From contig NC_133658.1 in the NCBI RefSeq assembly GCF_037893015.1, positions 61,237,636-61,301,635 on the forward strand: DNA of 64,000 nucleotides, in the 5' to 3' direction. Below, in pieces: positions 19,862 through 63,262 of this stretch. This DNA is from Macrotis lagotis. Taxonomy: Eukaryota > Chordata > Mammalia > Peramelemorphia > Peramelidae. Both the position numbers and the translations under genes were made by a program. Numbering within the stretch: position 1 is the stretch's first letter; each line of letters starts with the position of its first letter. The notes beneath the pieces were generated by a model. The model searched no databases, was not told the origin of the DNA, and worked only from the letters and a program-made list of their open reading frames with translations.

Positions 19862-21226
19862 ATGGTTTTACACACTTCCCCATTTCCCTGCTGCTGTCTG
19901 TCCATTCTGCATCACTTATCTTGGGCTCTGATCTGCCCATTTTACTGGCTTTTGGACAGACTCATATCCTCCTGGATACCAACTACTAATGAAAAGTGCC
20001 AAAGGGGCTCTCTGTGCTGGGTCCTCCGCTTTATCTTCACCACACCCATCTACTTGGCTCTCTGTACTCTGTCGATACCCAGTGCCATATGTGGGTTTCT
20101 TTTGTGGAACCCTCTCCAGCTATGTAGGCGACCATACATCTATTCTAGGCTAGAAGACAAGAGCCAGGCCAGTGGTACTCTCCTTCTCAATGAATGGAAG
20201 GCTACAGGCCCGGGGAAAAGTTTCTGTTTTGGCACTGCCAATGTCTGTCTCCTCCCTGAATTCTTGGCAAGGGTGAACAATCTTTCCAACATACAAGACC
20301 GGGCCAAAGAAATTGGACACAGAATCCGAAATGGGGCCAGTAGGCCGCAGATCAAAATATACATAGACTCCCCAACAAACACCTCTATCAGTGCAGCAAG
20401 CTTCAGCAGTTTGGCTTCGCCCCAAGGTGGCGATGGTCCCAACAAAGGTGTCAATGTGGGCATCAAGAGAACAACATCCATGGAATACAAGGGTAATGAT
20501 GGGAGTCCAAACAACAGCGAAGAGAACAGGAACCCCAAAAGTGGTGGTGACTTTCATGAAGTTGAAGACAATGCCTGTATCATCCAAATTGGTGGAGAAG
20601 ATGGCAGCCTTCTGTCTGACCCAGAAGCTGATGGCACTGGAGACTGCCAGATGGAGACACCTCCAGAAAACAAAGCAGAGTGCCAAAAGGGCCAAGCACC
20701 CAACCATAAAGCAAAGGAAGGGGACGCTGGAAGCTTAGATAGCTACACAGCCTCTAGAGAGTCCCTGGTGAAGGTCCGGATTGGGGAGAGCCCCGTGGAC
20801 CAAAGTTCTGTTAATAACAAATTGCTCCACAAGACTTCCATGCTCAAGAAGACCTCTTTGCGAAAAAAGAAGCATACGGATGAGATCTTTGACCATGAGA
20901 TCTCTGCCTTCTTCCCTGCCAACTTGGACTTCTTGTGCTTGCAGGAAGTGTTTGACAAAAGAGCAGCAGGGAAGTTGAAAGACCAGCTCCACCAATATTT
21001 TGAATACATTCTGTATGATGTGGGGATCTACGGCTGCTGCTGCCCCTGTAAGATCCTGAATAGTTGCTGCCCCTGTGAGAGCCTGAGCAGCTCCTGTCCC
21101 TGTAAAATCCTGAATAGTGGCCTCCTTTTTGCCAGTCGCTACCCAGTCATGGATGCTGTTTATCACTGTTACCCCAACGGAGGAGGGACGGATGCCTTTT
21201 CTTCAAAGGGAGCCTTGTTTGTTAAG
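19862..21226 (+). CDS. SMPD3: SMPD3 coding exon 1 (residues 1-455)
   Basis: This exon encodes 455 codons, about two thirds of the protein. The start is fixed by an in-frame TGA at 19853-19855, a strong context (G at -3, G at +4) and the match of MVLHTSPFP to human MVLYTTPFP. It carries both membrane segments, the conserved motif RPYIYSRLED, the regulatory linker with SPTNTSISAASFSSL, the Mg2+ ligand Glu362 and the DK-switch. The linker (about 205-330) is poorly conserved and rich in Gly, Asn, Glu and Lys. Three 27-bp coding repeats lie at 21038-21118. The donor is 'aag|gtaaga', phase 0. If the intron were retained, the frame would continue 12 codons to a stop at 21263-21265. Confidence 0.97.
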
Positions 21227-23847
21227 GTAAGAACCTCCTCTCTCTGTGACTTTGTCCTCTTCTAATCTACCCCTTGGGTAAGGAAGCTGTCCTGTTCCCT
21301 CTCTTCTAGTGTATCAGCTTGGTCTAGCATGATACTAATCCACTGGTTGACCTAGAGCAAGTTATTCCCCCTCTTCTCTAAAGGATTGACAGTCTCAAAC
21401 ATTTTAAGAGTCTATGAGCTGTTTCTATGTGATGCCTAAAATGTTGCACAAAAGATACTATGATTGGGAAATCTTTAGCCACAATGCCATTGCAAATCAG
21501 AATGGGGGCAGCTAGGTGACAGTAAACAGAACACCAACCCTGGAGTCAGGAAGACCTGAGTGCAAATCCAGTCTCACTCACTTAATAATTACCTAGTTGT
21601 AGGACCTTAGGCAAGTCACTTAACTCTACTGCCTTGCAAAAAAAAAAATGACTAGTAAACTAGTTCTTGTGCATGGAGAACAAACTTCCATAGCTAGAGA
21701 CTTAGTTTAAATGAGGATTGATATGGAGAGCTAATGCAGATTAAAGGTGGTAAATTTGATAGATTGGAATTTCAGAGGCCTTAAAGTCCATTAAAATTTC
21801 CCATTAATTTGGTCCTTAATTGATGTGTTTCATTAGGTTTGTACTTCCCCAACTGCTTTCTAAAATAGGCACACACATCATTATATGGCTGCATTGGGGG
21901 AGGTTCTGCCTACTACAATGTGGCCTCATTTTAGCAGTAATTAATTGAAATTAATAATTGTTTCTTTTAATTTAAAAGCAATTGAGGGAGTTTTTAGACC
22001 ATAATAATTTGGCTTTCTATGTTGTCTTCTCACAGAACATGAGAAGTTTGTTTCCTTCCCTCCCTTCCCCCCCCCGGCCCAATACTTTCTCAAAGTTAAA
22101 TTCAAGTTTTTCTATGTTCTCAAAGAAATATTTTTGCTCTCTATTGTGTGGTCAGATTTTTTTTTTGATGTCAGAGGTTATAAGGGATGATTCTAGTATT
22201 ATTGTTATTAATATTTAAATTTTCATCATTAATAAAAGGCCTCTTTACAATTACAAAGCACTTTGCTTACCACTTCTCATTCAGTCCTCAAAATAGCACT
22301 ACAAATAGAGCAAGAAGTATTTGCCTTTTTACTACAGGTGAGGAAACTGAAACCAATAGGTAAGATGACCTACCCATTGTCACTACAGTTAGTAGATAGC
22401 CAGGATTTTAACCCAGGTCATCTGATTCTAAATCCACTAGCTTCCTCTTTGATATTGACTCCTTGCTATAAATAATAATAATAAAAACAATAATAACCAT
22501 TGTCATTACTACAGTACTTTATATATTATAGCCTTTTGTATATATTATCTCATTTGATAGTCACAACAAGCTTTAGAAAGAGGTACTGAGGAGCAGCTAG
22601 GTGGCATAGTGGTTAAAGATAGGCCTTGGAGTCAGGAGTCCCTGGGTTCAAATCCGATCTCAGACACTTAATAATTACCTAGCTGTTTGGCCCTGGGCAA
22701 GCCACTTAACCCCGTTTGCCTTGCAAAAAACCTAAAAAAAAAAGAAAGAGGTACTGAGGAATTCTTTTTTCTCACTTTACAATGAGAAACATGAGTCTCA
22801 GGTCCTCATTAGGTTTGTTTTGTTTTTTTGCAAGGCAGTGGGGTTAAGTGGCTTGCCCAAGGCCACACAGCTAGGTAATTATTAAGTGTCTGAGGTCGGG
22901 TTTGAACTCAGGGACTCCTGACTCCAGGGCAAGTGCTCTATCCACTTCAAGTCCTGATTAGGACCCTGCAGGCAAGAAATGTTTGAGGCAGGATTCGAGT
23001 CCAGGAGTCTCCTGACTACTTTCCCATCATTCCAGCCAATTTTCTATCATACCACCTTGTTTGCTTCAGCATATCTTCCCCACAAGGACTCGTTCCACAC
23101 ATTTATGGAAACCAGTCTAGGCACCATAGAGCTAAAGAAACTGAGACCCAGAGAGAAGGACCCCGGCCAGAGCACTGGGACTAGGAGTCAAAGGATTTGG
23201 GTTGCAAGCTAACTCTATGTGTTACCTTAGATGGGTCTTTGACCTCTATATTTCTGTTTCTCCATCTGTAAAATTAGCCTAGGCTAGCTAACCTGGATAC
23301 AGATTAAGTGGTATGAAGGCAGAGACTACCCCACTGTCATCTGTGGGTGGCAGTCAGAGGCATTATGGCAGATGGCTAGAAGATGGTAGATGACCTTGGA
23401 GTCAAGAAGATTTGGATTAAAGTCTTGGCTACATGACCTTGGAGTGGTTAGTGAGGCTCTTAATATACCAGGCAACTTTTTAAGACTGTAATTTATAGAT
23501 GAATTGCCATCCACATCAGTGAAGGATATCTCCACACCAGGAGTTCCCTCAACTCTGCTGAAATCATGAGTCAATCAAACACTTTACTGCAGAACCCAGA
23601 ACAGGACTACACTTGGTAAATATTTGTTGAATAAATGAATAGAATATCACATCTAGCTCTACAGTCAATGTCTCATTGGGTTAACGATGGAGTTCATGCT
23701 AACAAGCCCATCACTGTGACCATCACAAATTAGCATTTTGGATCTGCTGATGGTTTTTGGTTACAAATTGTCATTAGGGGGAGAGAACATGGCATGCATA
23801 CAGCATGTGTGTTTCTGGCCTTGATCAAAGAGACCCCTCCTGAATAA

Positions 23848-28367: not shown

Positions 28368-31300
28368 ATGTGTGTGTGTGTGTGTGTGTAGAATGGCCTA
28401 AGAGGGTGCATGCTGCATAAATTATGGAACTGACCCTCTTGTAACATTATGAAACCCTAGTCGGGAAATCTATGTTGGATCATTATTAACCTTGCTCCTC
28501 CCCTCATCTGGGCAATCTCAGAGAACCTCTGAAACATTACCCTCTTCCAGGGATTCCACTTGATAGGAAATATCAGTCACTTTCCACAAGCTGATTTACC
28601 AGTCGGGACCCATCAGAGGGTAAATGTGGGCATTCTCAGCTGGTGCATATCACACCCTGCCCATTGTCTCCTATGTAGGTCTTGTCCATGTTTCTCTACA
28701 AATTAACCACAGGAGAACTACCCAGCCAAAAGTTTTATCCTCGGATTTAAAAAAACCCTCCTTCAGTGATAACATTCAAAATATGAGCCTGTCCAATGAT
28801 AATTCCATTTACTGCCCTGTCTTTGATATTGGTTTCTATTGAAATTTGCAGTTCTCTCTAATTAACTATTGGAAGTTCAGTCATTATCAAAAACTAGGCT
28901 GTGGAACCCAAATGTGTTTTTAAAGAGATGCTCTATTGTTGGGATCAGTTCACCCTCCCATGACTAGAACATTCCAAAATTAAGGTTATTTTGGGACTGT
29001 GAAGCTCTATCACTTGTAAGCAAATCTCTTATTGACCTGTCAATGAGAAGGCATGCCATGCTGTACACGTGGCGCATGAAGGGCACCTGAAATTTTGGTT
29101 TAGTTCAAACTAATCTGTCACTAAAAGTTCAGCTCATAAGAAATCTTGCACAGACCAAATACTATTAATAGAAAGTGTCACCAGCTTAAAAGCAGTCATT
29201 TAGGGGCTCAATTTAATGTAACAAATACTGGCTAGCAATGCAAGGCACTGGGCTGGAAGCTAGGGAGATGGGTAAAATAAGGTGAGGGCTGTCCTAAAGG
29301 AACTTATAATCTAACTGGAGAAATTTGGTGGAGGGTTGGATGTGAGAAAGGCCAAGAAAATGAGGCCAAGAGCAAAATATCCATACCAGACATGCGCAGC
29401 CACCTGAGTAAAGGTGCTGAGATAAAAGAAGGTATGTCAGGAATGACATGGTCCCTCCCGAAATCCACTAAAATCCCACAGTTTTAGGACCGCAAGGACA
29501 ACAATAACTAGGGATTTCCACTAGAATTCTTAGAATTGGGATACCTAGGAGGCGCAGTGGCTAGAGCACCAGCCCTGGAGTCAGAAGGATTTGAGTTCAA
29601 ATTTGACCTCAGCCACTTAATAATTGCCTAGCTGTGTGGCCTTGGGCAAGTCACTTAACTAACCCCATTGCTTGAAATAAGTAAAAAAAAAAAAATTTAA
29701 AAAGAATTTCAAATAAAAGAATTCTTAGAATCAGAGGATTTTAACATAAAGTATTTAAATTAGATTACTAAATAAAGAAAAGAGAATGGGAGGTAGGAAG
29801 GAAAGGCCACTAGGGTTAACAGTCCTTCTAGGTGTTTGGCTGTGAAGAAGAGGAAAGGTACAGGATAATTTCTTTAAGGGGAATGGCAGGGTCTGCTGAA
29901 AGGTTACTAAGGATGGAAAAGATCTGAGAAAGTTTATAACAGCAGGAAAGGCATCAATAGAAAGGAAATCTAGATATTGGGGGACCCTGGGCAAGTCACT
30001 TAACCCCATTGCCTTGCCAAAAAAACTAAAAAAGTAAAAATAAAGAGCAAAATACTGTTTTAAAGCAGGGAAGGGCAGCTAGGTGGCACAGTGAATAGAG
30101 CACTGGCCCTGGAGTCAGGAGGACCTGAGTTCAAATCCAGCTTCAGACACTTAAAAATTACCTAGCCGTGTAACCCTGGGCAAATCACTTAACCCTACTG
30201 CCTTGCCAAAAAAATCTAAAAAATAAATAAAAATAAAGAGCAAAATATTGTTTAAAAAAAGAAAAGAGGGGTGGCTAGGTGATGCAGTGGATAGAGCACT
30301 GGCCTTGTAGTCAGGAGTACCTGAGTTCAAATCCAGCCTCGGACACTTAATAATTACCTAGCCATGTGGCCTTGGGCAAGCCACTTAACTCCATTGCTTA
30401 AAGGCCCAAGCTCCTAGAGCAGAGGAAGGAGTATTCCCATATTGGCTTCCTTCATATCTCAGATAAAATCCTGCCTTCTGAAATGCACTAGCATCAAGGA
30501 AACTCCAAATTGAGCTCAAGGAGGAAAGAAGAGAAGATGATGGAGAGAGGGATTTGAGGTGTTGAATCAGGAAGAAAGGGTAGCACAACAATGATTTTGT
30601 AAGACATTCTAAGCTTATCTGTGGTATTGTGTGTTATATTTATTTAATTGAAGAGGAAAAATGATGTCTCATTTAAGCTTTCAGTCCTCCCCCCCCTTAC
30701 TCAGCACAGGACTCTGCATATTGTGGGTTAATGAATGTTTGTTAAATGTAAAAAAAAAACAAACAGATTTTGTAGCTGTATTTTGGTAAAAGTTTTGCAT
30801 TAAACTGATTCAATCTGATAATTTCTAATGGAACTCATAATTGTGATCATTAGCTTTTATTTAATTATGTTTTCTATTCATGATGGAAAATATGATCTCC
30901 TTTGTCATATGAAGATATTGAAATTTATTTTCATAACCCAGCACTTCTCCCATTATATTTGATGTAAGGGCAGAGAATTACTTCTCCACTGAGGGAGGAT
31001 CCTTAAACCATGGAAGAAAATCCATAACATTAAATTTAAAAAATCATTTTTATTGTATTTTTTAGAGGAAGACAGCTTTAGAGAGATAAAAATATGAAAA
31101 CAATTAGCTCATTTACTTTTTAAATACAAAACAATGAACATATGCCTTTCAATTAACAGAATGATCACCTATATAATATGTAATATGATGATAGTCAATT
31201 AACCAAAAGAGATGGATATAGAAGGTAGAAAAGAGCCAGAAGGAAGGCAGACCTCCACAAAGAAAGGGAACGCAATACCTAGAACTATTAGAGAAACTTT

Positions 31301-34300
31301 GGTGAAGCAATATCTCCATCTTGTGGTCTTTCAGGTCCTACTGCAAAGTATTTAAAAAAAAAAAAAAAAAACATTGCAGAACTAAAGACAAAAGCGTATG
31401 GTATTCCCATGGCCCAGAGAATTAAGCTGAAGATCCATTTTGGCCTTCAAACCAGAGCTTCCCCACTCTGGAGTTTCAGGGTAAACTGTTCATGCATGTT
31501 CCCCCATGTCAGTTCCTAATGTGTGTCCCTCATCTGTGTTTGCATTAAAGAAGGATGAGGAGCAAGGACTGACAAAGGGTGGGTGTAGATGAAAGCAAAA
31601 CCATGTTGGGAAAAAGAGACCACATTCACATAGTTTCAGAAGCATTCTTTTGCAGCTGGGAGAAAATTAGGAAGATTAGCAAAACAATCTTAAGCAAATC
31701 ACTTACAATTTGACTAGTGTGCAAGATAGCCAATTATCATCTATGGTGTGGATGGAAAATTTCTTGTAATATTTGCAAACTGAATCCCAAATAAACTGAT
31801 GCAAATTCTGTCATAACTGAAATTCAGTCTCTCCAACCATGCTGACATCTGGCAGTCAAGTCAACAAGCATTTATTTATTAAAATGCCCTACTACGTGCC
31901 AAGCATAAGAGGATACAAATAAAGACAAAAACCAGTGCCTGCCCCTAAAGCAGTTCCCCATGTTGTGGAGGAGACAACTTTCAAACAATTCTGCACAAAC
32001 AAAATAGAATCTGGAAAAACTGGGGCAAACTCAGAAGGAAGGCACTAGCATCAAGGAGGACCAGGAGAGGCTTCTTCCAGAAGATAGGATTTTATCTGAG
32101 ACATGAAGGAAACTAAGAAAACCAGGAGGAGGTGAGAAAGGAGGGCATTCCAGGCAGAAGGTGGGGCAAGAGGGACAAATGGCTGGAGTCAGTCTTGTGC
32201 AAGGAAGGGGGTTAAGACTATCCAAAAGATAGGAAGGTGACAGGCTAGGAAGGGCTCCTTCCAATGGACTTAAACTACTGACCTCATTCTGCCTGCACTT
32301 ATGCATGGGTGGGGTATCATTTTCTTATACACTCAAAACCCCTTAGTTCTCTTCTTCAAGGAGAATTTCTTTGAGAGGAAAATTCCAAGGAGAAGGTGTC
32401 AAGAATTAGAAGGAGAGGACGGCTAGGTAGCGTAGTGGATAAAGCACGGGCCCTGGAGTCAGGAGTACCTGGGTTCAAATCCGACCTCAGACACATGATA
32501 ATGACCTAGCTGTGTGGCCTTGGGCAAGCCACTTAACCCCATTGCCTTGCAAAAACCTAAAAAAAAAAAAAAAGACTCCATTTGTGAGGAGATGGAGCAA
32601 AGACAATAGTTTGGATGGAAAGGATCCAGGAGTTTTCATGTTCTACAAGGTCAATAAGTCAATGGGTGTAACACAGCAACCAAAAAACAAAAACAAAAGC
32701 TATCTTTGATTTTCTTAGAAAGAGCATGATGACCAGATCAAAAGGTCTGTCCATCCTCTCCTTTGGTCAGACCATATCTGGAGCATCATGTTCAGTTCTG
32801 TGTACCACATTTTAGGAAGGAAATCAATAGATGGAGAGTATCCAAAGCAACCAAGATGTTGAGGAGAGAAGTGATGCCATGTTCACTGAAGAAATGAAGA
32901 AACTGGGAGGAAACCTGGTCTGAGGAAGAGTAAGGGACCATAATAGCTACCTTCAACTATCTGAAGGATCAGAATGTGGGAAAAGGCTTATTTTGTTTGG
33001 CCTCGGGAGAAAGAATTAGGATTATTGCATAGAAGGCAGATTTAGGTTCTAATTAATAGAGTGGTTCAAAAGTAGAACAGACCATCTCAGGAAGTAGTGA
33101 GTTTCTCATCACTTGAGGTTTTCAATTATAGATTAGATGACCATTTGTCAGAAATATAGAGGCAATTGATGTATCAAACAGGCATTTTATTAGTGGACTT
33201 TTCATCTCTAAGTAATACATTTTCAGATATTTTTAGTCTACCCTGGCCTTTGGGATCTATTAATGAGATATTCCCACTTTGTGCAGTGGGTATTGGGGAC
33301 CAGAGGGAAAAATTGTTACCACTGACTCTTTACTTCTCCCCATACACCCAAACAAATCTAGTTAGAAATATCTCATGGTTTCTGCTGGTCTGTCAATTTA
33401 ACAATTCTACACTGAATATCTATGACCCAGGAAATAATCTGGCAACTCACTGTTCCCACCATCTAATTAATTATGTCCACTTCCCCTTCTTTTCTTCTCA
33501 GGTACAAGTGGGAAGTACACCTCAGGACCAAAGAATCGTGGGATATATTTCCTGCACCCACTTGCAAGCTGAAGGAGGTATGGAATTACCTATTCCTTAA
33601 TTTTTAGGTTTGGAATGAAGGTCACATTTTACTGAATAGAAATAAAAGATTACCCTTACCTGTTTGCACCGGGAATAAAAGCAAAATAACTCATGCACTC
33701 ACACACACAAAAATAGCCCTGAAAAATACCCTCCCACCTTGTTGGAAGTAAGAGAATTGTACCTTGACATGCAGTCAACTCCTCCCGGCCCCCACCTAAT
33801 CAGAACATGGGCAAAGCAGGAGGTTGTCTCAAACTGCAAAGATCCTGGGAGTGCCTCCATTATCAGAGTAACTCCCTAAAAGCTCTGCACTCCAAAGAAC
33901 AAGGCAGACAAGGAAGCTTTCACTTCCCACGCAGTCTGCCCATTGTTCCAGGAGAGACAGCTGTCACGATTCAGAGGTTCCCCAGCAAATGTTGCTCTTC
34001 TTGGAGAAAGCAGAATGTGCTGAGATTCAGTGATACAGGCATGGAGGCATATGGTCTATGGGCACAGTGACACTGGGAGTATGGTAGATGATCTTCCAGC
34101 CAAAAGTCTATGGAGAAAAGGGATAGAGCTGAAAGAGTCAACCAGGGAATTTGTATTTCCAGGCCTAAGGCAGGAACCATGAAATGTATCTTCTACACAT
34201 CTGTCCCCATTCTTAGTAAAGGCAAGCCTCACTTTCTCCTTGGTTTCCCTACAAGAAGCCATGAATTGATCCTTGCTTCAATATAACACAACACAACCCA

Positions 34301-37300: not shown

Positions 37301-40300
37301 AACCACTTCACAGAGCATACTTATACTCGTTTTGCCCAAGGTGGTGAAGGTCTAATTTTAGACCTGCTTTTAACACTTAGAAAGATGACCTCAAATGTGG
37401 CTGTAGATGCATGGAACCCAGTATAGAAAAGGTGACATGCAAGACAAAATCAGAGACTGCTCACTAGTATCATTTCCCTTCTGATTTAAATTATATTCAG
37501 CCCTAGAATTGTAGTGCTCCTCCTCCCCAACCTGGTGCTATGGCTTTTAAAGAGAAATAAGATTGTAATACTCATAAAAGTATTAAATTTTGGTTTCATT
37601 TCATATCCTAGGAAGTTTATCTAGGGCCAAAAGTGAAACCCTCAGTTTATGCAGAGAGGGTTCGCTCTTGGCAGCATCTCACCAATTATTTTTTTCTAGT
37701 CTGGATCCAAACCCAGAGTTTCCTAGAAATATCAGAATGTGACATGTCTAGGTCCCCACAGAAAAGGGGTCCTGAGCTCCCATCCTTACACCTGGGCTAA
37801 CAATGCATCAGCTATGGGGACAGGTTAGGTGAAGGGCCTCAAGATCACATTCTCTGAAATGATTCCAGGAGGTTTAATGGGAAGAAGAACAGATTTAGTG
37901 GTTGTGACTTAGGGATCCCCAACCTCTACCTAGGGAGTCATTTATTTGGGATTTTCCAAGTACTGATGAAAACTGAAGATGAGGAGGAGAGTTAGAAGGC
38001 TAAATTCATCAAGCACCAACAGAGGCAAAGGGAAATAGAGAGGAGGATACCCAGTATTCATTCCTACCCTTTGCAGGATGATTGTTAGCTCCAGCTCCTA
38101 CCCAATCCTGGGGCACTGGGGGTGGGAGCCCTGGCAGCAAAATTGAACCAGTTTCACCCCTGAACTACACAGTTTAAAGAGAACATCTCTCTCATAGCTA
38201 ACTCCTGCTAATCTATCTGCTAAATATCTTCTTGACCTAGAACCAGGGATAGTAATAAACAGATCATGATTCTGGCATTTGCATCTCTTTTCCTCTTGGA
38301 AAACTGAGCAGACTTCCCCTTGAAGGCGAGCTGGATTCTCTGCCCAAGGAAAATTCTTATGGGCTTTAAGAGATTGCTATCCTATCCAAAAAAAAAAAAA
38401 AAACTGCTAGTTCTTCTCTGGAGTAATAGCTTTGAAAGAGAAATCCAGGATCTGAGCGTAGGGGCACTTCCACACACCAGAGGAAGAAACCACCAGGGTA
38501 GTCTTGGGGTTCTGGGCTGGGTCCTGTGGGATTGTGGGCAGGTGACCCATATTCTCCTTGTTTCTATTTCTCCCATCTAGAAGACAGCACCATTCGATGT
38601 GAACAACTGAATCAGCTTCAGGATTGGCTGGCTGATTTCCGAAAATCTACCTCCTCCTCCAGCACAGCCAATCCCGAGGAGCTGGTGGCATTCGATGTGC
38701 TTTGTGGAGACTTCAACTTTGACAACTGCTCTCCTAGTAAGATGACTTTTTCTCTGACTCTCTCTCTCCTCTAATTGCATGAAACTGAACCCAAGAGCCT
38801 GAAGCCTCCTTCTGCCTCTGGCACCTACTTTGGGCATGGCCTATCCATCCAAGGTCTCAGTTTCTTAATACATAAATTGAAGAGGGTGGACAATGGTCTC
38901 TGAGATTCCAGCCAGGATGCTATGACTATTCCTATGACCCCTAATGCCTAGTGATGTGTCATCAGTAATCCTCACCCCGTGTGCTGCCTCCCTCTGAGTC
39001 TTGGGGGACTCAGGACTGGGAAGCCCCTTGTAAGCAAGACCAGAAAGAACAGATACTCTGATATTTCATCTGCTACCATTCTCAACTCACATTGCCATCT
39101 CTAGAAACTGCCCAGATCTGGAACCTGGGACCTCCACCTCAGTTCTCTTGCAGTGGTCCTGGTGAAGCCCTGTGGCTACTGCCATGCTGCTCTGGAGATG
39201 CCAGTTTTCAGCCCAGAGCGTAGAATGGGGTCAGGCAATCAGTGAACTGACCAGTACCAGGCTCTGTAGGATCCTAGGCAAGATCTCAAGACCTCAGACC
39301 TTAAGAAACAAGCAATACACCTAATTTTCTTTTCAAAAATTGGGTGTGGAGAGGTGACTCTTCTCACATCGCAAAAATAATAAAGCCCATTTCTCCAGTG
39401 TGGACATGAGGAGTCATTTACATTAAGGCTATGAAAAATAAGCAAGTCTTTCACTTTTGTTTTTTATGATAATGATAGCTAATATTTACGAAGCAAGCTT
39501 CATGGTTTGCAGAGCACTTTGTAGATGTCCTCTTTTTTGATCCTCACAATAGTCTTCTGAGGCAACTATTATTGCAGTCCCCATTTTACAAATGAAGAAG
39601 CCAAACTAAAAGAGGCTAAGGGACTTGCCCAAGGTCACATGGCCACAAGGGTTTGAGGTAGGATTTGAGCTAGATTTCCTGACTCCAGACTGCTACACAG
39701 CTACCTCTAGGCAGATGTCACTAGCAAACAAACAGATCCTTCCCTCCTCTAGACAACACATCCAACCTGAGGCTAAAATCCCCAAACACAGAACACCAAG
39801 GAGAAGGGAAGGGGCAGAGAAGATGAAGAAAGCATCATTACTGGACCTTGGGCCACTTGCTTCTGAGACAGTTTAAATGATGCTTTTAAGGATTAGGAAC
39901 TCAGGAGGTGAGCCAAGACTAGGTGGGACAAATGGAGCCCGCTATCTTAGGCAAGGGTAGAGGAATCTGTTTTCTAAACATTTTAAAAAGAACCTTTATC
40001 AAGGTATTCTCCTTCCTTTCCTTCTTTTAGGGCAGGGATCCCATATTGGGCCCTCAGGGTCAGAGACTGCCTCACACAGATTAGGAACCTAATATTTTTT
40101 GAGATAACGCCTATATGTGTTTTCAGAGACTCATACAATTAGAGCTCCATCTGCTTACATCTAGTTCAGCTAAAATTAAAAGGCATTTTCCAAGGATGAT
40201 ATTGGAGCCTCCTTGAGCAGCCACCAGCAGCCTAGACAATGGTGTCCCCATCCCACCCTGGGCAAAACCCTCATTCCTGCATTCCAATCTCCACCCTGAA

Positions 40301-43300
40301 GGAAGAATCCTCTGGAGAGCTTTTCAGGGTCACTGCTGGGAAGAGCCAAAGCAGAAGGAGAGGTGGGCCCTTGGCATTCCTGGACTTCCACTTTGGGAAC
40401 AGGCTGGCTAATATCTTCTTCTCTCTGTTCAGATGACAAGCTGGTACAACAGCACTCCCTGTTTACACACTACAAGGACCCCTGCCGCGTTGGTCCAGGA
40501 GAGGATAAGCCCTGGGTAATCGGTAAGGCATCCCCTCCAGCTTCCCAGGCAACTTTGTTGTCTGCTGCAGCGCCATGGGGCATGGCCAGGGAATATCCAA
40601 CCAGCTATTATGCTTGGTGATGTGGGTTCTTATTATGTGACCCCCCCAAATATTCCTGACTTTGGAAGTCAGTGCATGTATAAGCTGCTGTGAATTTTCC
40701 AGAACAGCCCACAAACTCCTAGAATGTTGAGACATAGACTTCAGAATGCCCACCTTGTACTCTTGCCACCCCATCCTCCCACTTCCCTTGAGAAAGAAAC
40801 AAATGTGCCCATCCACTTTCTAACAAGAGCAGAAGGGAGAGCAGAAGCAATAGAGGAGAAGGGAGAGGGAGAGGGTCTCTTTCACACCAGAGAAATGAAA
40901 CTGGCCATGGTGTCCCCCTCCCAGGTTCCCCTTCCTTCCTTTCCCCTCAGAAGTAGAGGACAGACTGCTGCAGAAGCCCTCCCACCCTTGCCTGGATTGC
41001 ATTACCTACTCTGCAGTGCTAGGAAGGTGGTATCCACCTGGGTGGGCAGGGGCACACCGATGACAGCTTAACCCAGGGAATGTCAAATTCCACCATGACA
41101 TGTGAGTCTCTCATTCTCATTCTTGTGTCCTCTTACTTCTCAGGTACTTTTTTAAAACAAGATCGTCTCCATGACGAGGAGGTGAGCACCCCGGACAATC
41201 TACAAAAGTAAGCTGCTTCATGTTGGTTTTTCCCTTTAGCAGAAAACAAACCTGATCTGGGTCACAGCCCAGAAAACATAAATCAGAGGGTATCACAGCA
41301 AAATAGAGAGAAAACCAGCTGTGGAGTCAGGACTTGGAGACCAGTACTGACTGTCCCTTATTACCTGTGTGACCTTGGAAAAGTCATTTCCCATTTCTGG
41401 GCCTGTAAAATAGGGGGATAGACAAGGCATCTTCTGAAGTCCTATATAACTCTATATCCATGATCTTATTTCAGGGAAGGTCAGTGATAGTTTTATGGGC
41501 AGTCAATGCATATATTCAGAAAAAGAATACAAAGTTTCACTAGATTATTATATCAGAGGCAAAAAAAAATCATCAGATTTGTATAGTGAAAAGGGAACTG
41601 GATTTGGAGTCAAAGAATCAAATCCTGACTTGGTTTCTTACTCTCTGGAATCCTGGGTAAATCACTGCTGTACCTCTCTCAGCCTCAGTTTCTTCATTTG
41701 TAAATGAGAGAGGTAAGGGTGGGGAATGGAAGAAAGAAACCCTAAGAACCCTTCCAATTCAGTGAGGCTGCACTGAATCCGATCCTCCCAGTGGAGGTTC
41801 TTCAGACACACAAGCAACAAGTGAGGTTTTCTAAGACTGTTCTAAAGCAACAGGGTTGAAAAGGATAATGGTGGGCAAACATGGGCCATTAATGGCCCAG
41901 AACTATCCATTACACCAGGACATTGAACACTTGGGCAAGGAGCTAAGGAGCTGCCACTTCACACACACACACACACACACACAGATACCACATCCCAGAA
42001 AGCACATGGCTAGAAGGCTAAGATTGTGTTTAAGGCATTCACATCTGGGAGCGGCAAGGTGGTGCAATGGATAGAGCATCAGCCCTGGAATCAGGAGTAC
42101 CTGAGTTCAAATCCAGCCTCAGATACTAAATAATTACCTAGCTGTGTGGCCTTGGGCAAGCCACTTAACCTCATTTGCCTCACAAAAACCTAAAAAATAA
42201 AAAATAAAAGATGTTCACATCTGCTTATTTCCAGAAACCAATAGCACGCAAAGCTGGTGGTCAGATCATCCTTAAGTGCACAGTGCTGTATAGATCATTC
42301 CTCTCCAGGCACCTCCATTGCACCATCATCTTTCTCTGGGCAACTAATGAACAGTTCCTTGTGTTAATGAACTGCCAGTAGAGCCTAGGAAGGGCCCCAG
42401 GTGAGGGGATGAGCCGCTGCCTGCCCAAGGAACAAGGCTCTGGTTCTTCACCTTCATTTTCCAGGATTATCCGATTCCATGCCCAGGCATATCAGACCTT
42501 TTTCACAAAGGGCTTTCCTCATTAAAAAGAACATGCAACTAGATTTCTCAGCTAGAATTTGACCTTTTCATTCAGCATACCCCATTGGCACTTGGTTTCC
42601 TCACAAAGGGGGCTGGCCTGTGCGAGGAACCATTCATTCACTCAATCAATCAACAAGCATTTATTAAGTGTTTTCTTGCTCTGTTCTAACCAAAGATCCT
42701 GAAAACAGAAGGCTGAGGAGGAAACAAAAAGGCATGAGAGACAAAAGATGTAGTGCTGTGTGCAAAGACCATTATAACTGGCCAGGAGAGTGCCCAGAGG
42801 GGAACAAAATACAAAAAGCCTGGAAAAGGAGGAAGGGGCCAAATGAACTGCAATTGCCAAACAAGGACTTATTTGATCCTCAAAGTATGAGGAAACCATT
42901 GGAGTCTTCTGAGTAGGTAGATTATATGATCAGATCTATGCTTTAGGAAAATCTCCTTGGCAGGTAATGGAAAGATGTATGAGAGCCCAAGTCGAAAGCT
43001 ATTACAGGGATGGCTAGGTGGCGTAGTGGATAAAGCACCGACCCTGGAGTCAGGAGTACCTGGGTTCAAATCCAGTCTCAGACACTTAATAATTACCCAG
43101 CTGTGTGGCCTTGTGCAAGCCACTTAACCCCATTGCCTTGAAAAAATCTAAAAAAAAAAAAAAAAAAAACAGAAAGCTATTACAATAATCCAGATGTGTG
43201 GTGATAAGGTTGGAGGCTAGGGTAAGAGCAGAAAAGGGAATATAAGCAAGAAGTAGGGTAGAGAAAGAAATGACAAGAGCTGATCACTGATTGGGTATGT

Positions 43301-46300: not shown

Positions 46301-48861
46301 GACTGGAATTCATGTCCTCTTACTCTCAAGCCCACTGTTCTTTCCTGAACTCCACTTCCCTTCTACTGTGAGATTCAATGAGACAATATATGTAAAAATA
46401 AACCTCTGTGATCTTTGGGAAGGAAAAAAAATGATTCTCTGGGCACAGCTAGGTGGCACAGTAGATAGAGCACCTACCCTGGAGTCAGGAGAACCTGAGT
46501 TCAAATCTGGCCTCAGACACTTAATAATTACTTAGCTGTGTGACCATGGGCAAATCACTTAACTCTATTATCTTGCAAAAACCTTAAAAAAAAAAAGACT
46601 CTGCACTTCAGAAACTAGGGTGTCAAACAGTAACATCCCTCCATTATGGAGCAAGAAATCAGCCCCTAGAAAAGGAAGCCTGGGTGGCCCCCACACTTAT
46701 CATGGAGCCACAGGCTTGTGTTTCAAGCATTCATTGGAAAGATAAAAGAAATAGGCTGCTACTTCCAGTTCTTATGTTGCAGTCAAATGGACTCTGGAAA
46801 AAAAGGCATTTTTGAGCCATTAAAAAAATTAAAAGTAAAAACCCCACATTTCTAAAGCAATTTTATCCCAACAGCACTAAAAGGGCCCAATGGTCCTCAG
46901 CAGATTAACCAATATGGAGTCTAGTTATTCTTGGTTCAAGGTGACACCTCTACCCTTTATAAACAAAGCTGAGTCTATAGATGCTGGGGCCAGGCAGTGT
47001 TTATCTAAGCATTGAGAATTTTTTCAATTTAGAGACAGTTTCCTCTCCCACAAATCTGTTTCCAAAGAGCAAAGCTTAGTTGAGTCACAACAGGAGAGAT
47101 GAGTTTCTGAATGTTTAATCTACTTAGCAGAGTCAAATTGTTTCCCCTTTTACAATCTAATGGCAGCTCCATTGGAAGCAACCACAGATGGACAACCCTT
47201 AATCTCGCGATGGGGTGTGAGAAGAGTGTTGAGGAGAGGCAGTTAAGAATCATCCTTCAGGGAAGCTAGGTGGCGCAGTGGATAGAGCACCAGCCCTGGT
47301 GTACCTCAGGTACCAGGAGTACCTTGAGTTCAAATCCAGCCTCAGACACTTAATAATTACCTAGCTGTGTGGCCTTGGGCAAGCCACTTAACCCCATTGC
47401 CTTGCAAAAAAAAAAAAAAAAAACCTTAAAAAAGAATCATCCTTCAAAAGCATTTCATATCTGAAATGTTGAACCTTGAAACTGTCTGCTCATGACTTAT
47501 CTATTTATATGGACTACAGGGCCCTGGAAAGTGAAGAAGGGAGGAAAGAATATATTGACTACCCCACCAGCAAGAGTCATCCTTCCAACCAGAAGGTCTT
47601 AGTGAAGGGCAATGGCAGGAGGATTGACTACATGCTCTATTCTGAAGAGGGGCTCTACCTGGAGTGGAAAGTGGTGAGTTTTTCAGCAAAGAATGTGTGT
47701 GGGGCAGCTGGGAGGGATTCACTGGGCAATGTTAGTCTAAGCTGCTTTGGCACTTCAAGGCAACTAAATAGGCTCACATGTGACTTCTGTGGAGCTGAGG
47801 ACAAAGAGTTCCAACATGCTAGACTGTATACACATAGAAAATTTTGAGTTGGAGTGAAATATCTCAGTTGGGACAGCATGGAATAAGTCCAAAAGTTCTG
47901 TACTTAGAAATTAGAGTTGTCCAATGCCAGCTCTGCTTCTAAAACCTATGTGAACCTGGACAAGTCATATCTCTGGGCCCATTTCTTCATGGGTAAAGGG
48001 ATCTGATTGGGCCCGATTAGGGGTTCTCACCTTGTTTGTCTCATTGGACCCCTTTGGTAGTTTGATAAAAACCTATGCCTCCTTCCTCAGAATCCTATTG
48101 GTATAGGATCACAAAGGAAACCAATCTGATCGAAATACAATTATCAAAGTTAAACCAAGTTAAAGACTTTTGTCTCAGGCCTCTTCTACTCTGCATCCTA
48201 TGGCCTCCCTTGTAAAAGTAGGTGTAATGAGAGCACTTGCCTCACAGGGTTATGAGGATCAAATGAGCTGTTCTATGTAAAGCACTTTACTAAGCTAATA
48301 ATTGCCACATCAGTGTCACCTATGATGATGACCACCCTCCTGTAACCTATATGGACCAGCCTAAGGTTGGGAGGATGGGAGAGAAAGATGGATGAGCTCA
48401 GCAAGAGGAGCCTACAATAGGAGACCACATGGGGTGGCTAGGTGGCGCAGTGGATAAAGCACTGGCCCTGGAGTCAGGAGTACCTGGGTTCAAATCCGGT
48501 CTCAGACACTTAATAATTACTTAGCTGTGTGGCCTTGGGCAAGCCACTTAACCCCGTTTGCCTTGCAAAAAAAAAAAAACTAAAAGAAAAAAATAGACCA
48601 CATGGCAGCAGCCACCTAGTCTCTCCTCCATTATTGTACCAAAGTCCCTTTTTGACCACCTCTTTCTCTCCTTATTGTCAGAATGTTCTTTTCTATGTAA
48701 TCCCTCCTTTTGAATTTTATCCTCATTCTCTTGTTTTTTACATCATTATTTTCCTGTAGGAGGTGGAGGAATTCAGTTTTATTACCCAGTTAGCAGGTCT
48801 GACTGACCACCTACCTGTGGCCATGCGCCTGATGGTCAACACTGGCGAGGAAGAGGTTTAG
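19862..48861 (+). CDS. SMPD3: SMPD3, neutral sphingomyelinase 2 (7 coding exons, complete)
   Basis: Joined exons 19862-21226, 33502-33577, 38581-38736, 40433-40522, 41144-41207, 47520-47673 and 48760-48861 give 2007 nt, or 668 residues; human is 655. All junctions keep frame and have GT donors and AG acceptors. The enzyme is a Mg2+-dependent phosphodiesterase that cleaves sphingomyelin to ceramide and phosphocholine on the cytosolic leaflet of Golgi and plasma membrane. Two N-terminal hydrophobic segments (about residues 12-31 and 60-80) are followed by a collagen-like or linker region and a DNase-I-type catalytic fold. Visible active-site residues are Glu362 in LQEVFD (human E364), the DK-switch pair Asp444/Lys449 (human D430/K435), Asp524 and Asn526 in GDFNFDN (human D510/N512), and Asp651-His652 in GLTDHLP (human D638/H639). 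All are intact, so an active enzyme is expected. The extra length is mainly a threefold cysteine repeat at 393-419. Human numbers are from memory of the family. Confidence 0.97.
21038..21118 (+). repeat. SMPD3: Three tandem 27-bp coding repeats (Cys-rich)
   Basis: Units at 21038-21064, 21065-21091 and 21092-21118 encode CCPCKILNS, CCPCESLSS and SCPCKILNS (residues 393-419). Human SMPD3 has a single unit here, CCSFKCLNS, between VYGCQG and GLLFASRYP. Units 1 and 3 are most alike; unit 2 has drifted. Cys395 and Cys396 of the human/mouse unit are reported palmitoylation sites. The repeat is in frame and the flanking residues align without gaps, so it is an expansion inside a functional exon and not an assembly of two exons. 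Confidence 0.9.
21504..21648 (+). mobile_element. Marsupial tRNA-SINE, sense
   Basis: 'gggggcagctaggtgacagt' to 'ctgccttgcaaaaaaa'. It lies about 280 bp after the donor of SMPD3 coding exon 1. Confidence 0.9.
22240..22470 (-). mobile_element. MIR-type SINE, antisense
   Basis: 'acaaagcactttgcttacca', 'aggtgaggaaactgaaacc' and 'aacccaggtcatctgattct' in reverse MIR order. Confidence 0.65.
22593..22742 (+). mobile_element. Marsupial tRNA-SINE, sense, 18-bp perfect TSD
   Basis: Flanked by agaaagaggtactgagga at 22575-22592 and 22743-22760 with no mismatch, so a fairly young insertion. Confidence 0.97.
22814..22947 (-). mobile_element. Marsupial tRNA-SINE, antisense, head-truncated
   Basis: From 'gtttttttgcaaggcagtgg' to 'gctctatccactt'. 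The outermost head is missing. Flanks caggtcctcattagg (22799-22813) and caagtcctgattagg (22948-22962) form a 15-bp repeat with two mismatches. Confidence 0.9.
23851..23898. repeat. (AC)n microsatellite
   Basis: 48 bp of AC. Confidence 0.97.
24595..24720 (-). mobile_element. L2 LINE 3' end, antisense
   Basis: 'tttaacaaacattgattaaa', 'gcctactaggtcctag' and 'ctgccctcaaaaagtttaca' match the antisense L2 tail. Confidence 0.6.
25390..26030 (-). mobile_element. CR1/L3-type LINE remnant, antisense
   Basis: 'cagaatcccagaattggaaa', 'gaagccctccagggatgggg', 'cagatgtggtccaaccaggg', 'caagtccagtgaaattctaa' and 'atcccagctttgtgtcac' follow, in order, the antisense CR1 3' half known from bird CR1. Confidence 0.65.
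26031..26870 (-). mobile_element. L2 LINE remnants, antisense
   Basis: An inner part ('atttgggagtcatttacata') is followed by a fresh 3' end ('caacaaatatttattaaata', 'ctgccctcatgaagcataca', 'gaactttaaatatcaacatt'), so two pieces abut. Confidence 0.55.
27216..27386 (+). mobile_element. Marsupial tRNA-SINE, sense, (AAAAC)n tail
   Basis: Near-consensus copy ending in repeats of AAAAC and poly-A. Flanks resemble each other (gactaagtagtcttg and gactagtcttg), an imperfect target-site repeat. Confidence 0.93.
28323..28389. repeat. (TG)n microsatellite
   Basis: 67 bp of TG with one CA interruption at about 28367. Confidence 0.97.
29205..29450 (-). mobile_element. L2 LINE remnant, antisense
   Basis: 'caaggcactgggctggaagc' and 'ctaaaggaacttataatcta' fit the antisense L2 end. 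The remainder is decayed. Confidence 0.45.
29537..29717 (+). mobile_element. Marsupial tRNA-SINE, sense, intact TSD
   Basis: 14-bp repeat agaattcttagaat at 29523-29536 and 29718-29731. Confidence 0.95.
29980..30255 (+). mobile_element. SINE tail plus full SINE sharing one 3' flank
   Basis: A tail-only SINE piece (29984-30030) and a full SINE (30073-30225) are each followed by the same ~30-nt flank containing 'taaagagcaaaata'. Confidence 0.85.
30267..30400 (+). mobile_element. Marsupial tRNA-SINE, sense
   Basis: 'ggggtggctaggtgatgcag' to 'ccacttaactccattgctta'. The poly-A tail is lost. Confidence 0.9.
31855..32290 (-). mobile_element. L2 LINE remnant, antisense
   Basis: 'caacaagcatttatttatta', 'ctactacgtgccaagcataa', 'aggcactagcatcaaggagg' and 'gagggcattccaggcagaag' follow antisense L2 over 430 bp. 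Confidence 0.6.
32417..32574 (+). mobile_element. Marsupial tRNA-SINE, sense
   Basis: Consensus from 'gacggctaggtagcgtagtg' to poly-A. No clear flanking repeat. Confidence 0.93.
32720..33165 (+). mobile_element. CR1/L3-type LINE 3' end, sense
   Basis: 'ggtcagaccatatctggagc', 'gttcagttctgtgtaccaca', 'tatctgaaggatcagaatgt' and 'tctcaggaagtagtgagttt' lie in the order of the CR1/L3 3' region. It ends about 340 bp before SMPD3 coding exon 2. Confidence 0.7.
33502..33577 (+). CDS. SMPD3: SMPD3 coding exon 2 (residues 456-481)
   Basis: 76 nt encode VQVGSTPQDQRIVGYISCTHLQAEG plus one base of Glu481. It matches human VQVGSTPQDQRIVGYIACTHLHAPQE. This is a beta-strand segment of the DNase-I-type fold; the Thr-His in CTHL is characteristic of the family. 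Acceptor AG is at 33500-33501 and the donor is 'gtatgg' at 33578. One residue is missing relative to human between His and Glu of HAPQE. Confidence 0.96.
34620..35380 (-). mobile_element. CR1/L3-type LINE remnant, antisense
   Basis: 'cagatgtgatctgacgaagg', 'aagatcacattagctttttc', 'gtcatccacaaatttgataa' and 'aggtgttgtacagaataagg' follow antisense CR1. Broken by the SINE head and a MIR fragment (about 35170-35270). Confidence 0.65.
34725..34770 (+). mobile_element. SINE head fragment between direct repeats
   Basis: Only the tRNA-like head ('caatggatagagcactggtc') is present, with no body or A-tail. Flanks accctattgctag and accctatttctag differ at one base. Confidence 0.75.
36005..36165 (-). 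mobile_element. MIR-type SINE, antisense
   Basis: 'ggtgctttgcaattcccaaa', 'attatccccactttacaaag' and 'acttgcctaaggccacaaag'. Confidence 0.65.
38581..38736 (+). CDS. SMPD3: SMPD3 coding exon 3 (residues 481-533)
   Basis: 156 nt encode EDSTIRCEQLNQLQDWLADF, then RKSTSSSSTANPEELVAFDV, then LCGDFNFDNCSP and the first base of Asn533. It carries the GDFNFDN motif (Asp524, Asn526), which corresponds to human Asp510 and Asn512 in the metal/substrate site. The serine-rich loop KSTSSSS is conserved with human. The donor is 'gtaaga'. The phase joins A|AT to exon 4, giving NDKL where human has DDKL. Confidence 0.97.
38737..40432 (+). other. SMPD3: SMPD3 intron between coding exons 3 and 4
   Basis: 1.7 kb with one antisense MIR-type repeat (about 39465-39705). 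The rest is unremarkable. The acceptor tract is 'cttcttctctctgttcag'. Confidence 0.9.
39465..39705 (-). mobile_element. MIR-type SINE, antisense, nearly whole
   Basis: 'gtttgcagagcactttgtag', 'gatcctcacaatagtcttct', 'cccattttacaaatgaagaa', 'acttgcccaaggtcacatgg' and 'gatttcctgactccagact'. Confidence 0.75.
40433..40522 (+). CDS. SMPD3: SMPD3 coding exon 4 (residues 533-563)
   Basis: 90 nt encode DKLVQQHSLFTHYKDPCRV and GPGEDKPWVI between split Asn533 and Gly563. It matches human DKLEQQHSLFTHYRDPCRLGPGEEKPWAIG almost residue for residue. The donor is 'gtaagg' at 40523. Confidence 0.97.
40523..41143 (+). other. SMPD3: SMPD3 intron between coding exons 4 and 5
   Basis: 621 bp with no recognisable repeat. 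There is a purine-rich (GAGAAGGGAGAGG) stretch near 40855-40875. The acceptor is 'cttacttctcag'. Confidence 0.9.
41144..41207 (+). CDS. SMPD3: SMPD3 coding exon 5 (residues 563-584)
   Basis: 64 nt encode TFLKQDRLHDEEVSTPDNLQ flanked by split Gly563 and Lys584. Human has TLLDTNGLYDEDVCTPDNLQ, so the first half is the least conserved part of the catalytic domain here, while TPDNLQK is fixed. The donor 'aa|gtaagc' is at 41208. Confidence 0.95.
41300..41760 (+). mobile_element. Two MIR/THER-type SINEs, sense
   Basis: Copies at about 41300-41465 ('acctgtgtgaccttggaaaa') and 41555-41760 ('ggatttggagtcaaagaatc', 'ctcagcctcagtttcttcat'). Confidence 0.6.
41960..41982. repeat. Short (CA)n
   Basis: About 11 CA units. 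Confidence 0.9.
42047..42209 (+). mobile_element. Marsupial tRNA-SINE, sense
   Basis: 'gagcggcaaggtggtgcaat' to an A-rich tail. Short flanking repeat ttcacatct (42038-42046 and 42214-42222). Confidence 0.92.
42635..43780 (-). mobile_element. Long L2 LINE tract, antisense
   Basis: Runs from 'caacaagcatttattaagtg' through 'aatccagatgtgtggtgata', 'gatcactgattgggtatgtg' and 'tttggacatattgcctttga' to 'ttcaggggtcaataatgtca', the order of antisense L2. It is one of the longest ancient repeats here and is interrupted by the SINE at 43007-43171. Confidence 0.65.
43007..43171 (+). mobile_element. Marsupial tRNA-SINE in L2, intact TSD
   Basis: Perfect 13-bp flanks gaaagctattaca at 42994-43006 and 43172-43184. 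21-nt A-tail. Confidence 0.96.
43785..44110 (-). mobile_element. Second L2 3' end, split by a SINE
   Basis: 'caacaaacatttattaagta' and 'ctccatgctaggagaaatac', resuming after the SINE with 'ataaagcctacagtctcaca'. Confidence 0.6.
43886..44041 (-). mobile_element. Marsupial tRNA-SINE, antisense, intact TSD
   Basis: Perfect 13-bp flanks tgtttctactctt at 43873-43885 and 44042-44054. Confidence 0.96.
44690..44860 (-). mobile_element. MIR-type SINE, antisense
   Basis: 'gctttaagatttgcagagtt', 'cctcacagcaatcctgagtt' and 'ccctattttacagaagaaac'. Confidence 0.6.
46441..46597 (+). mobile_element. Marsupial tRNA-SINE, sense
   Basis: 'cagctaggtggcacagtaga' to 'tcttgcaaaaaccttaaaaa'. No clean flanking repeat. 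Confidence 0.93.
47260..47431 (+). mobile_element. Marsupial tRNA-SINE beside SMPD3 exon 6, intact TSD
   Basis: 15-bp repeat aagaatcatccttca at 47245-47259 and 47432-47446. It carries an internal 'gtacctcaggtacc' insertion near 47300. Confidence 0.96.
47520..47673 (+). CDS. SMPD3: SMPD3 coding exon 6 (residues 584-635)
   Basis: 154 nt encode ALESEEGRKEYIDYPTSKSH, then PSNQKVLVKGNGRRIDYML, then YSEEGLYLEWKV. The GNGRRIDYML core, part of the substrate-binding floor in this superfamily, is identical to human. The acceptor 'tatggactacag' is short of pyrimidines. A SINE ends 73-89 bp upstream. The donor is 'gtg|gtgagt'. Confidence 0.96.
47674..48759 (+). other. SMPD3: SMPD3 intron between coding exons 6 and 7
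   Basis: 1.1 kb. It holds a MIR tail (about 48180-48330), one full SINE (48433-48594), and a T-rich acceptor ending 'ttttcctgtag'. Confidence 0.9.
48433..48594 (+). mobile_element. Marsupial tRNA-SINE, sense, intact TSD
   Basis: 11-bp repeat agaccacatgg at 48422-48432 and 48595-48605. It lies 165 bp before the last SMPD3 exon. Confidence 0.96.
48760..48861 (+). CDS. SMPD3: SMPD3 coding exon 7, C-terminus and stop
   Basis: 102 nt encode EVEEFSFITQLAGLTDHLPV and AMRLMVNTGEEEV, then TAG at 48859-48861. It carries the catalytic Asp651-His652 pair in GLTDHLPVA, the general acid/base of the DNase-I-like sphingomyelinases (human D638-H639). The length after His652 equals human. The final residue is Val where human has Ala. 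Confidence 0.98.
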   Translation, partial: EVEEFSFITQLAGLTDHLPVAMRLMVNTGEEEV

Positions 48862-51800: not shown

Positions 51801-53135
51801 AGTATCAACAGTGTCCTGCCATCTCTACCAGGGTGTTTTATCCAGAAACCATGGTTGCAGAATCTCAACATTCCCAAGGCTATCGTGCTTTGAGGAAGAT
51901 TAAAACTCCAGACCCTCCCTTACTGTCCGTTCACTCACTGAGTCTCCAAGACTCTGATGTCTCTTAGGAATCATCCTTCCTTTAGAAAGGGTTTTCACAG
52001 AGCTAGAAAATCCCAATTTCTTGTGAGAAGCCTTTAGACTCTGGGATTTTTTACTATTTACTTATTCTGGTTTGTCAGCGTGCACGAATCATGTGATTGT
52101 ATGATTGAACACATGCAACAGATTATGATTGTTCAGGCTGCGAAGCAACACACCCCTACCCATAAACACAACAGTTAGTCCTGCAGGTCACTCTGAGTCC
52201 AGGGGTTCCTGGCTGGTCACGCAGGGCAGCCAGGGAAGACTGAAGGCCTCTCAAAGAATGAAGATAGATCATGTAAGGGTTAGCACTGTTCTGCCAAGCA
52301 GGGCCTTCTGCTGGGGGACTGGATTTACCCACCTGGAAGGACGAGGATGGCTGTCTCTCTCCCCTCCTCACTGACTGTGGGGGCCTTAGGCAAGTCTTTC
52401 AATCTCCCTGTGCCTCCATTTTGTTGTCCTTGAAATGGATGGAGCAGTTTGTTCCCTCTTTCCCCTTGAGCACCAGGCCCTGCTTTTTATCCTTTTTAAT
52501 AGAGATATAATGCTCAGAAATCACAACTTCCCCTCCCTAAATCCTTGACAATGGGCCCATAGCATTTGCTTGATTGTACTGGTTTTATGAAGCCAGTAAG
52601 CGGGCTTGCCCATAAACTAAATATTTACAATTTTGATTTTTTTTTTAAATTTCCCTGTGACTCAGATTCAATCAAATCGAGTAATGTCTAAGCTGGGAGT
52701 AGCTCATGGACTCACTCCCAACTCAGAAATGATAATCTGCTTCTGCTTCTGCTTCTGCTCCTGCTCCAGGGCTGGGGAAGGGGAAGATACCTCTGACCAG
52801 CCCCAATATAAGCCATGCATTGGGACCCAGTTCAGTCAGACGGCTTATGAAGGAAGCGTTTTCATGTGTCCAAAACCATCTTGAGTTTTAAGTATGAATA
52901 TTAATCTTGATGCTTTTTAAATATTGTATTACTGCTAAGGTTTAGAAAATACTGTTTTAAAAAAACTTTTTTAATTTCAATAATTTTTCTGTATTGTATC
53001 CTTCTGGGACCTGATGGGGTTTTATACGGTAAGCACACCTAACGTTTTGGTAAAACTGTATCTGATATATATCTATCTGTTTCTTCCCTGTAAGAAAACG
53101 AGTCTTACACCTAATAAAATATTTTGAAGGGTTTT
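48862..53135 (+). other. SMPD3: SMPD3 3'UTR, about 4.3 kb
   Basis: No stop-free frame or splice signal of note follows the TAG. The next credible poly(A) signal is at 53113. The tract is free of SINEs and LINEs, unlike the rest of the window, as expected for transcribed exon. AT-rich, conserved-looking stretches lie at about 49225-49380 and 52890-53120. A short hexamer run (TTCTGC)n lies at 52736-52766. The extent is inferred from the signal position and the absence of repeats. Confidence 0.7.
53113..53118 (+). promoter_or_regulatory. SMPD3: SMPD3 poly(A) signal AATAAA
   Basis: Canonical AATAAA in 'cctaataaaatattttg', followed by a T-rich stretch (gtttttctttt) that would serve as the downstream element. 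A second AATAAA lies at 53188-53193 and could be an alternative end. Confidence 0.7.

Positions 53136-56421: not shown

Positions 56422-63262
<6,841 letters not shown>

Follow-up and report, generated by a model that had tools for sequence, protein, structure and literature searches.

What becomes of an enzyme's membrane anchor when the loop that carries it is multiplied by a tandem repeat? The question is posed by a 64,000-nucleotide stretch of the Macrotis lagotis genome (hereafter the window, whose own numbering is used throughout), in which three copies of a 27-bp unit lie within the coding sequence of SMPD3, the gene for nSMase2. This enzyme is located on the inner leaflet, where it makes ceramide, and the mouse protein is palmitoylated at Cys53, Cys54, Cys59, Cys395, and Cys396 (PMC10550728). 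According to the sections of that report drawn on here, a mouse mutant of these five cysteines fails to reach the plasma membrane, and in fat-loaded cells nSMase2 needs palmitoylation to move to that membrane. The mutant described there removed all five residues together, and the N-terminal cluster and the loop cluster were thus not separated (PMC10550728).

The SMPD3 gene and its coding tandem repeat

The gene within the window is an intact SMPD3 orthologue. Its first coding exon (455 codons; 19862..21226 on the forward strand, with the ATG at 19862 and a gtaaga donor at 21227) encodes the N-terminal hydrophobic domain, the insert, and the beginning of the catalytic domain, in which the loop lies. 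The coding exons downstream were found by tblastn with a human SMPD3 sequence and delimited by splice joining, all on the forward strand, at 33502..33577 (exon 2, with glutamine at the position of human His463), 38581..38736 (exon 3, with the catalytic GDFNFD), 40433..40522 (exon 4), 41144..41207 (exon 5), 47520..47673 (exon 6), and 48760..48861 (the last, with the TDHLP catalytic motif and a TAG stop codon). Joined at GT-AG junctions, the seven exons give a protein of 668 amino acids with no internal stop, approximately 69% identical to human SMPD3 over the aligned residues. The same human sequence served for both the alignment and the search, and only parts of it were confirmed by the structure 5uvg_A, by PMC9697135, and by the mouse letters given in PMC10550728.

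Among solved structures, the first coding exon matches 5uvg_A (SMPD3) with an E-value of 4.4e-69, the next best match being a bacterial sphingomyelinase (E 0.046). In Pfam, the same exon, which holds only part of the domain, reaches Exo_endo_phos (PF03372) at an E-value of 0.075 and 13.2 bits, against a cut-off of 24.5. Two N-terminal hydrophobic segments remain, with best 19-residue hydropathies of 1.42 and 2.02, versus 1.58 and 2.32 in the human protein. As in human and mouse SMPD3, the catalytic and DK-switch residues are in place and a cysteine-rich loop lies between YDVG-YG and GLLFASRYP. Specifically, with the residue list taken from the relevant part of PMC9697135, all seven catalytic residues (N130, E364, D510, N512, D607, D638, and H639) and both DK-switch residues (D430 and K435) are conserved; the earlier statement that the catalytic residues are all intact therefore holds for the seven named in that source. 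The protein is predicted to possess neutral sphingomyelinase activity.

The neighborhood of the gene agrees with this assignment. Four pieces at 56.4-63.2 kb (56434..63214, reverse strand) match the C-terminal part of PRMT7 with E-values of 2e-8 or better and represent 3' exons of a gene convergent to SMPD3. The two genes are likewise convergent on human chromosome 16, and we take PRMT7 to be a synteny marker. The identity of the gene, first proposed in a sequence-only reading of this DNA, is thus borne out by the match to 5uvg_A, the seven-exon structure, the catalytic residues, and the PRMT7 neighbor. No second close copy of the exon protein was found in the assembly at E-values up to 0.001, in a loose first look of which all eight candidates were scored, and a paralogue or pseudogene is ruled out by the intact gene, by this lack of another close match, and by PRMT7 being in place. 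The sole other match at that threshold, a distant one, belongs to a gene on the minus strand of contig C9 (G000:C9:621594500-621601500, at about 621.599 Mb), whose first coding exon is open and whose exon pieces resemble SMPD5. The human SMPD5 is a pseudogene. Several exon pieces of this SMPD5-like paralogue, the catalytic region among them, match the window protein at 30-58% identity; in a three-way alignment, most of the long central insert has no match in the paralogue, whose loop is devoid of cysteine.

The repeat itself is detected by TRF at 21038-21118 as an array of period 27 and 3.0 copies (75% matches, score 106). It consists of 81 bases arranged as three head-to-tail units, in frame within the 1365-nt coding exon. 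By TRF and translation, unit 1 (21038..21064, forward strand) encodes CCPCKILNS, unit 2 (21065..21091, forward) encodes CCPCESLSS and shares 22 of 27 bases with unit 1, and unit 3 (21092..21118, forward) encodes SCPCKILNS, is identical to unit 1 at 24 of 27 bases and to unit 2 at 19 of 27, and adjoins the conserved GLLFASRYP. The three in-frame units and their translations had been described beforehand in exactly these terms, and the description is confirmed. The CPC core is present in all three units. Paired cysteines occur in units 1 and 2, and unit 3 has a single cysteine ahead of the proline; unit 2 differs from the other two by K/E, I/S, and N/S. The missing cysteine of unit 3, together with the substitutions of unit 2, indicates that not all residues have been held. 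When the exon was shuffled 500 times with its dinucleotides preserved, an array scoring at least 30 appeared in 99 of the shuffles, and the best score was 68, compared with 106 for the real array.

The possibility that the repeat was copied from elsewhere in the genome was also addressed; a 99-base repeat query, in a search that skipped very common words, matched only itself in the assembly, and this origin is ruled out on that basis. A donor-like site occurs in unit 1 (CCT|GTAAGA at 21048, score 5.3) and another in unit 2 (CCT|GTGAGA at 21075, score 5.1), on a simple donor matrix that gives the real exon donor 10.8; other GT dinucleotides in the exon score up to 5.4, and these two sites are therefore unremarkable. 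Elsewhere in the window, TRF reports an array of 196-bp units at 29984-30397 (2.2 copies, 83% matches), which seems to us to resemble a marsupial SINE, and five copies of the hexamer TCTGCT at 52736-52765, downstream of the SMPD3 stop codon. Rfam gave no matches at gathering score over the window.

Direction and age of the triplication

Relative to human SMPD3, the loop from YG to GLL has lengthened from 12 residues to 28, and three units stand in the place of one. Expansion from a single unit, as proposed in the sequence-only reading, holds with respect to the tripling, but the net gain is 16 residues rather than 18; two units have been gained and two residues lost. The mouse primer letters, read from YG to the final serine of the loop, agree with 12 residues, and 12 is also the length in the bilby's own SMPD5-like gene, where the loop aligns to human SMPD3 without a gap. 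With 12 residues in the human enzyme and the paralogue alike, and with the mouse consistent, a single unit is likely to be the ancestral state and the triplication derived. That three units might instead be ancestral, an alternative which that reading had left standing, is contradicted by this outgroup.

The triplication also appears to be old. If substitutions are assumed to accumulate at 1.0-2.2e-9 per site per year, the two most similar units separated approximately 27-60 million years ago (95% limits 5-185), and the remaining pairs 48-106 and 86-188 million years ago, all of these being rough figures derived from few coding sites. The same divergence bears on the quality of the sequence. 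Tandem repeats are generally error-prone, and one might suspect that the array was created by the assembler or is a recent, polymorphic expansion. In either case, however, the units would be identical, whereas these differ pairwise at 3, 5, and 8 of 27 sites, a strong argument against both assembler duplication and recent polymorphism. In addition, the frame and flanks are intact, and the assembly contains a single match to the locus. An artefact had been entertained earlier, and between the differences among the units and the failure to find a second copy in the assembly, we find it, or a recent polymorphism, hardly credible. What the bilby gene holds is a real, derived, and apparently old in-frame triplication in a known enzyme, at a site that is modified in the mouse.

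Cysteines and candidate membrane anchors

The tripled loop sits at the mouse palmitoylation site, as had been supposed (PMC10550728). The cysteines concerned had been given as residues 395 and 396 of both human and mouse; this is correct for mouse numbering, but the human pair is Cys397/398 in the text of PMC9697135. The earlier count of nine cysteines within residues 392-414, against four in the human loop, is likewise correct, and no 23-residue stretch of the protein lying clear of the loop contains more than four.

The N-terminal domain has followed a different course. The counterpart of the mouse/human N-terminal palmitoylation cluster (KCQRGSLCWVLRFIFT), identified by alignment at 19994..20041 on the forward strand, keeps at most one of Cys53, Cys54, and Cys59, depending on the placement of gaps. 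In contrast to human and mouse SMPD3, none of the three is in place: the aligned positions are W, V, and F, and Cys52 might match one of them, but only one, under another gap placement. The second mouse-type cluster, an adjacent pair of loop cysteines, is present as the CC of units 1 and 2, but with Cys53/54/59 displaced, the protein is not filed under the mouse-type two-cluster pattern of palmitoylation. Compared with the human sequence, the N-terminal domain has lost five cysteines and gained eight (at residues 10, 11, 25, 46, 52, 68, 77, and 88), and the whole protein has kept 13, lost 10, and gained 17. The displacement of the N-terminal cluster, combined with the new cysteines, points to a redistribution of candidate acylation sites and not to the expansion of one cluster only. 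The sequence-only reading had proposed a change in membrane anchoring; the tripled loop on which it built is upheld, and such a change may follow from it, but the loss in place of Cys53/54/59 and the adjacency of the DK switch had been overlooked.

The most likely mechanism, in our estimation, is that the extra cysteines of the loop act as additional S-acylation sites, neutral drift in length being the main rival. The in-frame 27-bp triplication took the palmitoylation loop from 12 residues with four cysteines to 28 residues with nine. Under this proposal, the extra CCPC and CPC motifs would provide further S-acylation sites, or alternatives to the existing ones, and would be candidate substrates of the acyltransferases acting on the loop in mouse. 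The added cysteines might then keep the catalytic domain nearer to the membrane, or at the membrane for longer, and might partly compensate for the displaced N-terminal cluster, such that the lipid anchors would be redistributed with a larger share on the catalytic domain. The additional 16 residues need not disturb the fold, since loop residues 393-402 are absent from the human crystal structure as described in PMC9697135. In our judgment, the chances that the extra cysteines are acylated and that lipid anchors have been redistributed in this manner, given the loss of the N-terminal cluster, are evenly balanced.

It is tempting to go one step further and suggest that nSMase2 has moved its lipid anchor in bilbies, and perhaps in marsupials more widely, with the N-terminal cluster given up and the loop converted to a multi-acylated cysteine string, although we consider this larger claim rather doubtful. 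If it were true, the catalytic domain itself would be membrane-bound and its activity coupled to the state of acylation. Densely acylated and closely spaced cysteines are found in SNAP25, which also has a CPC core, and in cysteine-string protein; the likeness is no more than a resemblance to the loop; the peptide searches gave no such family, and no relationship is claimed.

Could the loop simply have drifted? In this alternative, replication slippage within a disordered and tolerant loop produced neutral or nearly neutral changes in length, and nothing in particular depends on the extra cysteines. The lack of residues 393-402 from the human crystal structure (PMC9697135) would suit such a loop, as would the divergence of several amino acids between the units, and cysteines elsewhere in the protein have been both gained and lost, a turnover that drift in hydrophobic segments might alone explain. 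The relative-rate count, which takes the bilby's SMPD5-like gene as the outgroup and human SMPD3 as the comparison, is also compatible with drift: there are 27 changes in the window lineage versus 16 in the human lineage (p = 0.13), which is not a significant acceleration. By region, the changes in the window and human lineages number 11 and 4 in the N-terminal part (p = 0.12), 1 and 0 in the next, 3 and 5 in the loop-bearing part, which shows no excess, and 12 and 7 in the rest; with no region significant, selection is not proven. Five of the 27 changes are to cysteine (F25C, P52C, L71C, L80C, and F400C, in human numbering), the placement of F400C hinging on the repeat alignment. Against drift, the loop carries a known modified site and measures 12 residues both in the human enzyme and in the SMPD5-like paralogue, the mouse letters being consistent, and the CPC core is intact in all three units even though they look old. 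Drift thus retains a substantial share of our expectation, but we favor the acylation reading over it.

A loop with nine cysteines in 23 residues, arranged in CC and CPC patterns, also invites comparison with metal-binding or redox-sensing segments, and in the PDB the loop peptide weakly matches photosystem I Fe-S proteins (PsaC). These matches are insignificant, however (38 sequences, with E-values from 1.5 to 8.7), the peptide matches no Pfam family at E-values up to 10, and unit 3 lacks the first cysteine of the pattern; a metal or redox function is accordingly very improbable.

The combination of a tripled loop and a displaced N-terminal cluster amounts to a natural experiment on which cysteines matter, and it bears as well on a question of evolutionary turnover: do acylation sites come and go as other short motifs do? 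Here, a coding tandem repeat would have changed how many candidate lipidation sites an otherwise conserved signaling enzyme carries. Searches of the open-access literature found no report of this repeat. An opossum transcript "similar to SMPD3" is included in an expression table, without its sequence, in the part of PMC4051688 concerned, and SMPD3 was not found in the main text of the bilby genome paper (PMC11239497). In birds, site 307 of an SMPD3 alignment is cysteine in vocal learners and tyrosine or a gap in others, as given in an excerpt of PMC12703197.

The DK switch and the inhibitor pocket

In the sections of PMC9697135 used here, the loop neighbors that of the DK switch, besides being absent from the human crystal structure, and forms part of a modeled pocket with His463. 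Since the loop adjoins the switch, its lengthening could, as a second possibility, affect activation. The longer loop might mainly alter activation, either via the Asp430/Lys435 switch or through coupling to other regulators, and both its published position (PMC9697135) and the substitutions L432F and A433S in the DK loop and H463Q in the pocket, which are specific to the window lineage in the three-way comparison, speak for such an effect. On the other hand, D430 and K435 are unchanged, and among the 13 non-loop pocket residues named in that part of PMC9697135, four differ from human (D429T, L432F, A433S, and H463Q; 31%), as compared with 64 of 301 (21%) across the catalytic parts without the loop, numbers that are too few to tell. 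We regard a primary effect on activation as unlikely, and the addition of acylation sites remains the preferred reading.

The substitution at human His463 has a possible consequence of its own. The window protein has glutamine at this position, whereas histidine is present in human SMPD3 as well as in the SMPD5-like paralogue. In human nSMase2, His463 is described as crucial for the inhibitor DPTIP (PMC9697135), and the bilby enzyme, with its glutamine, may respond poorly to this compound.
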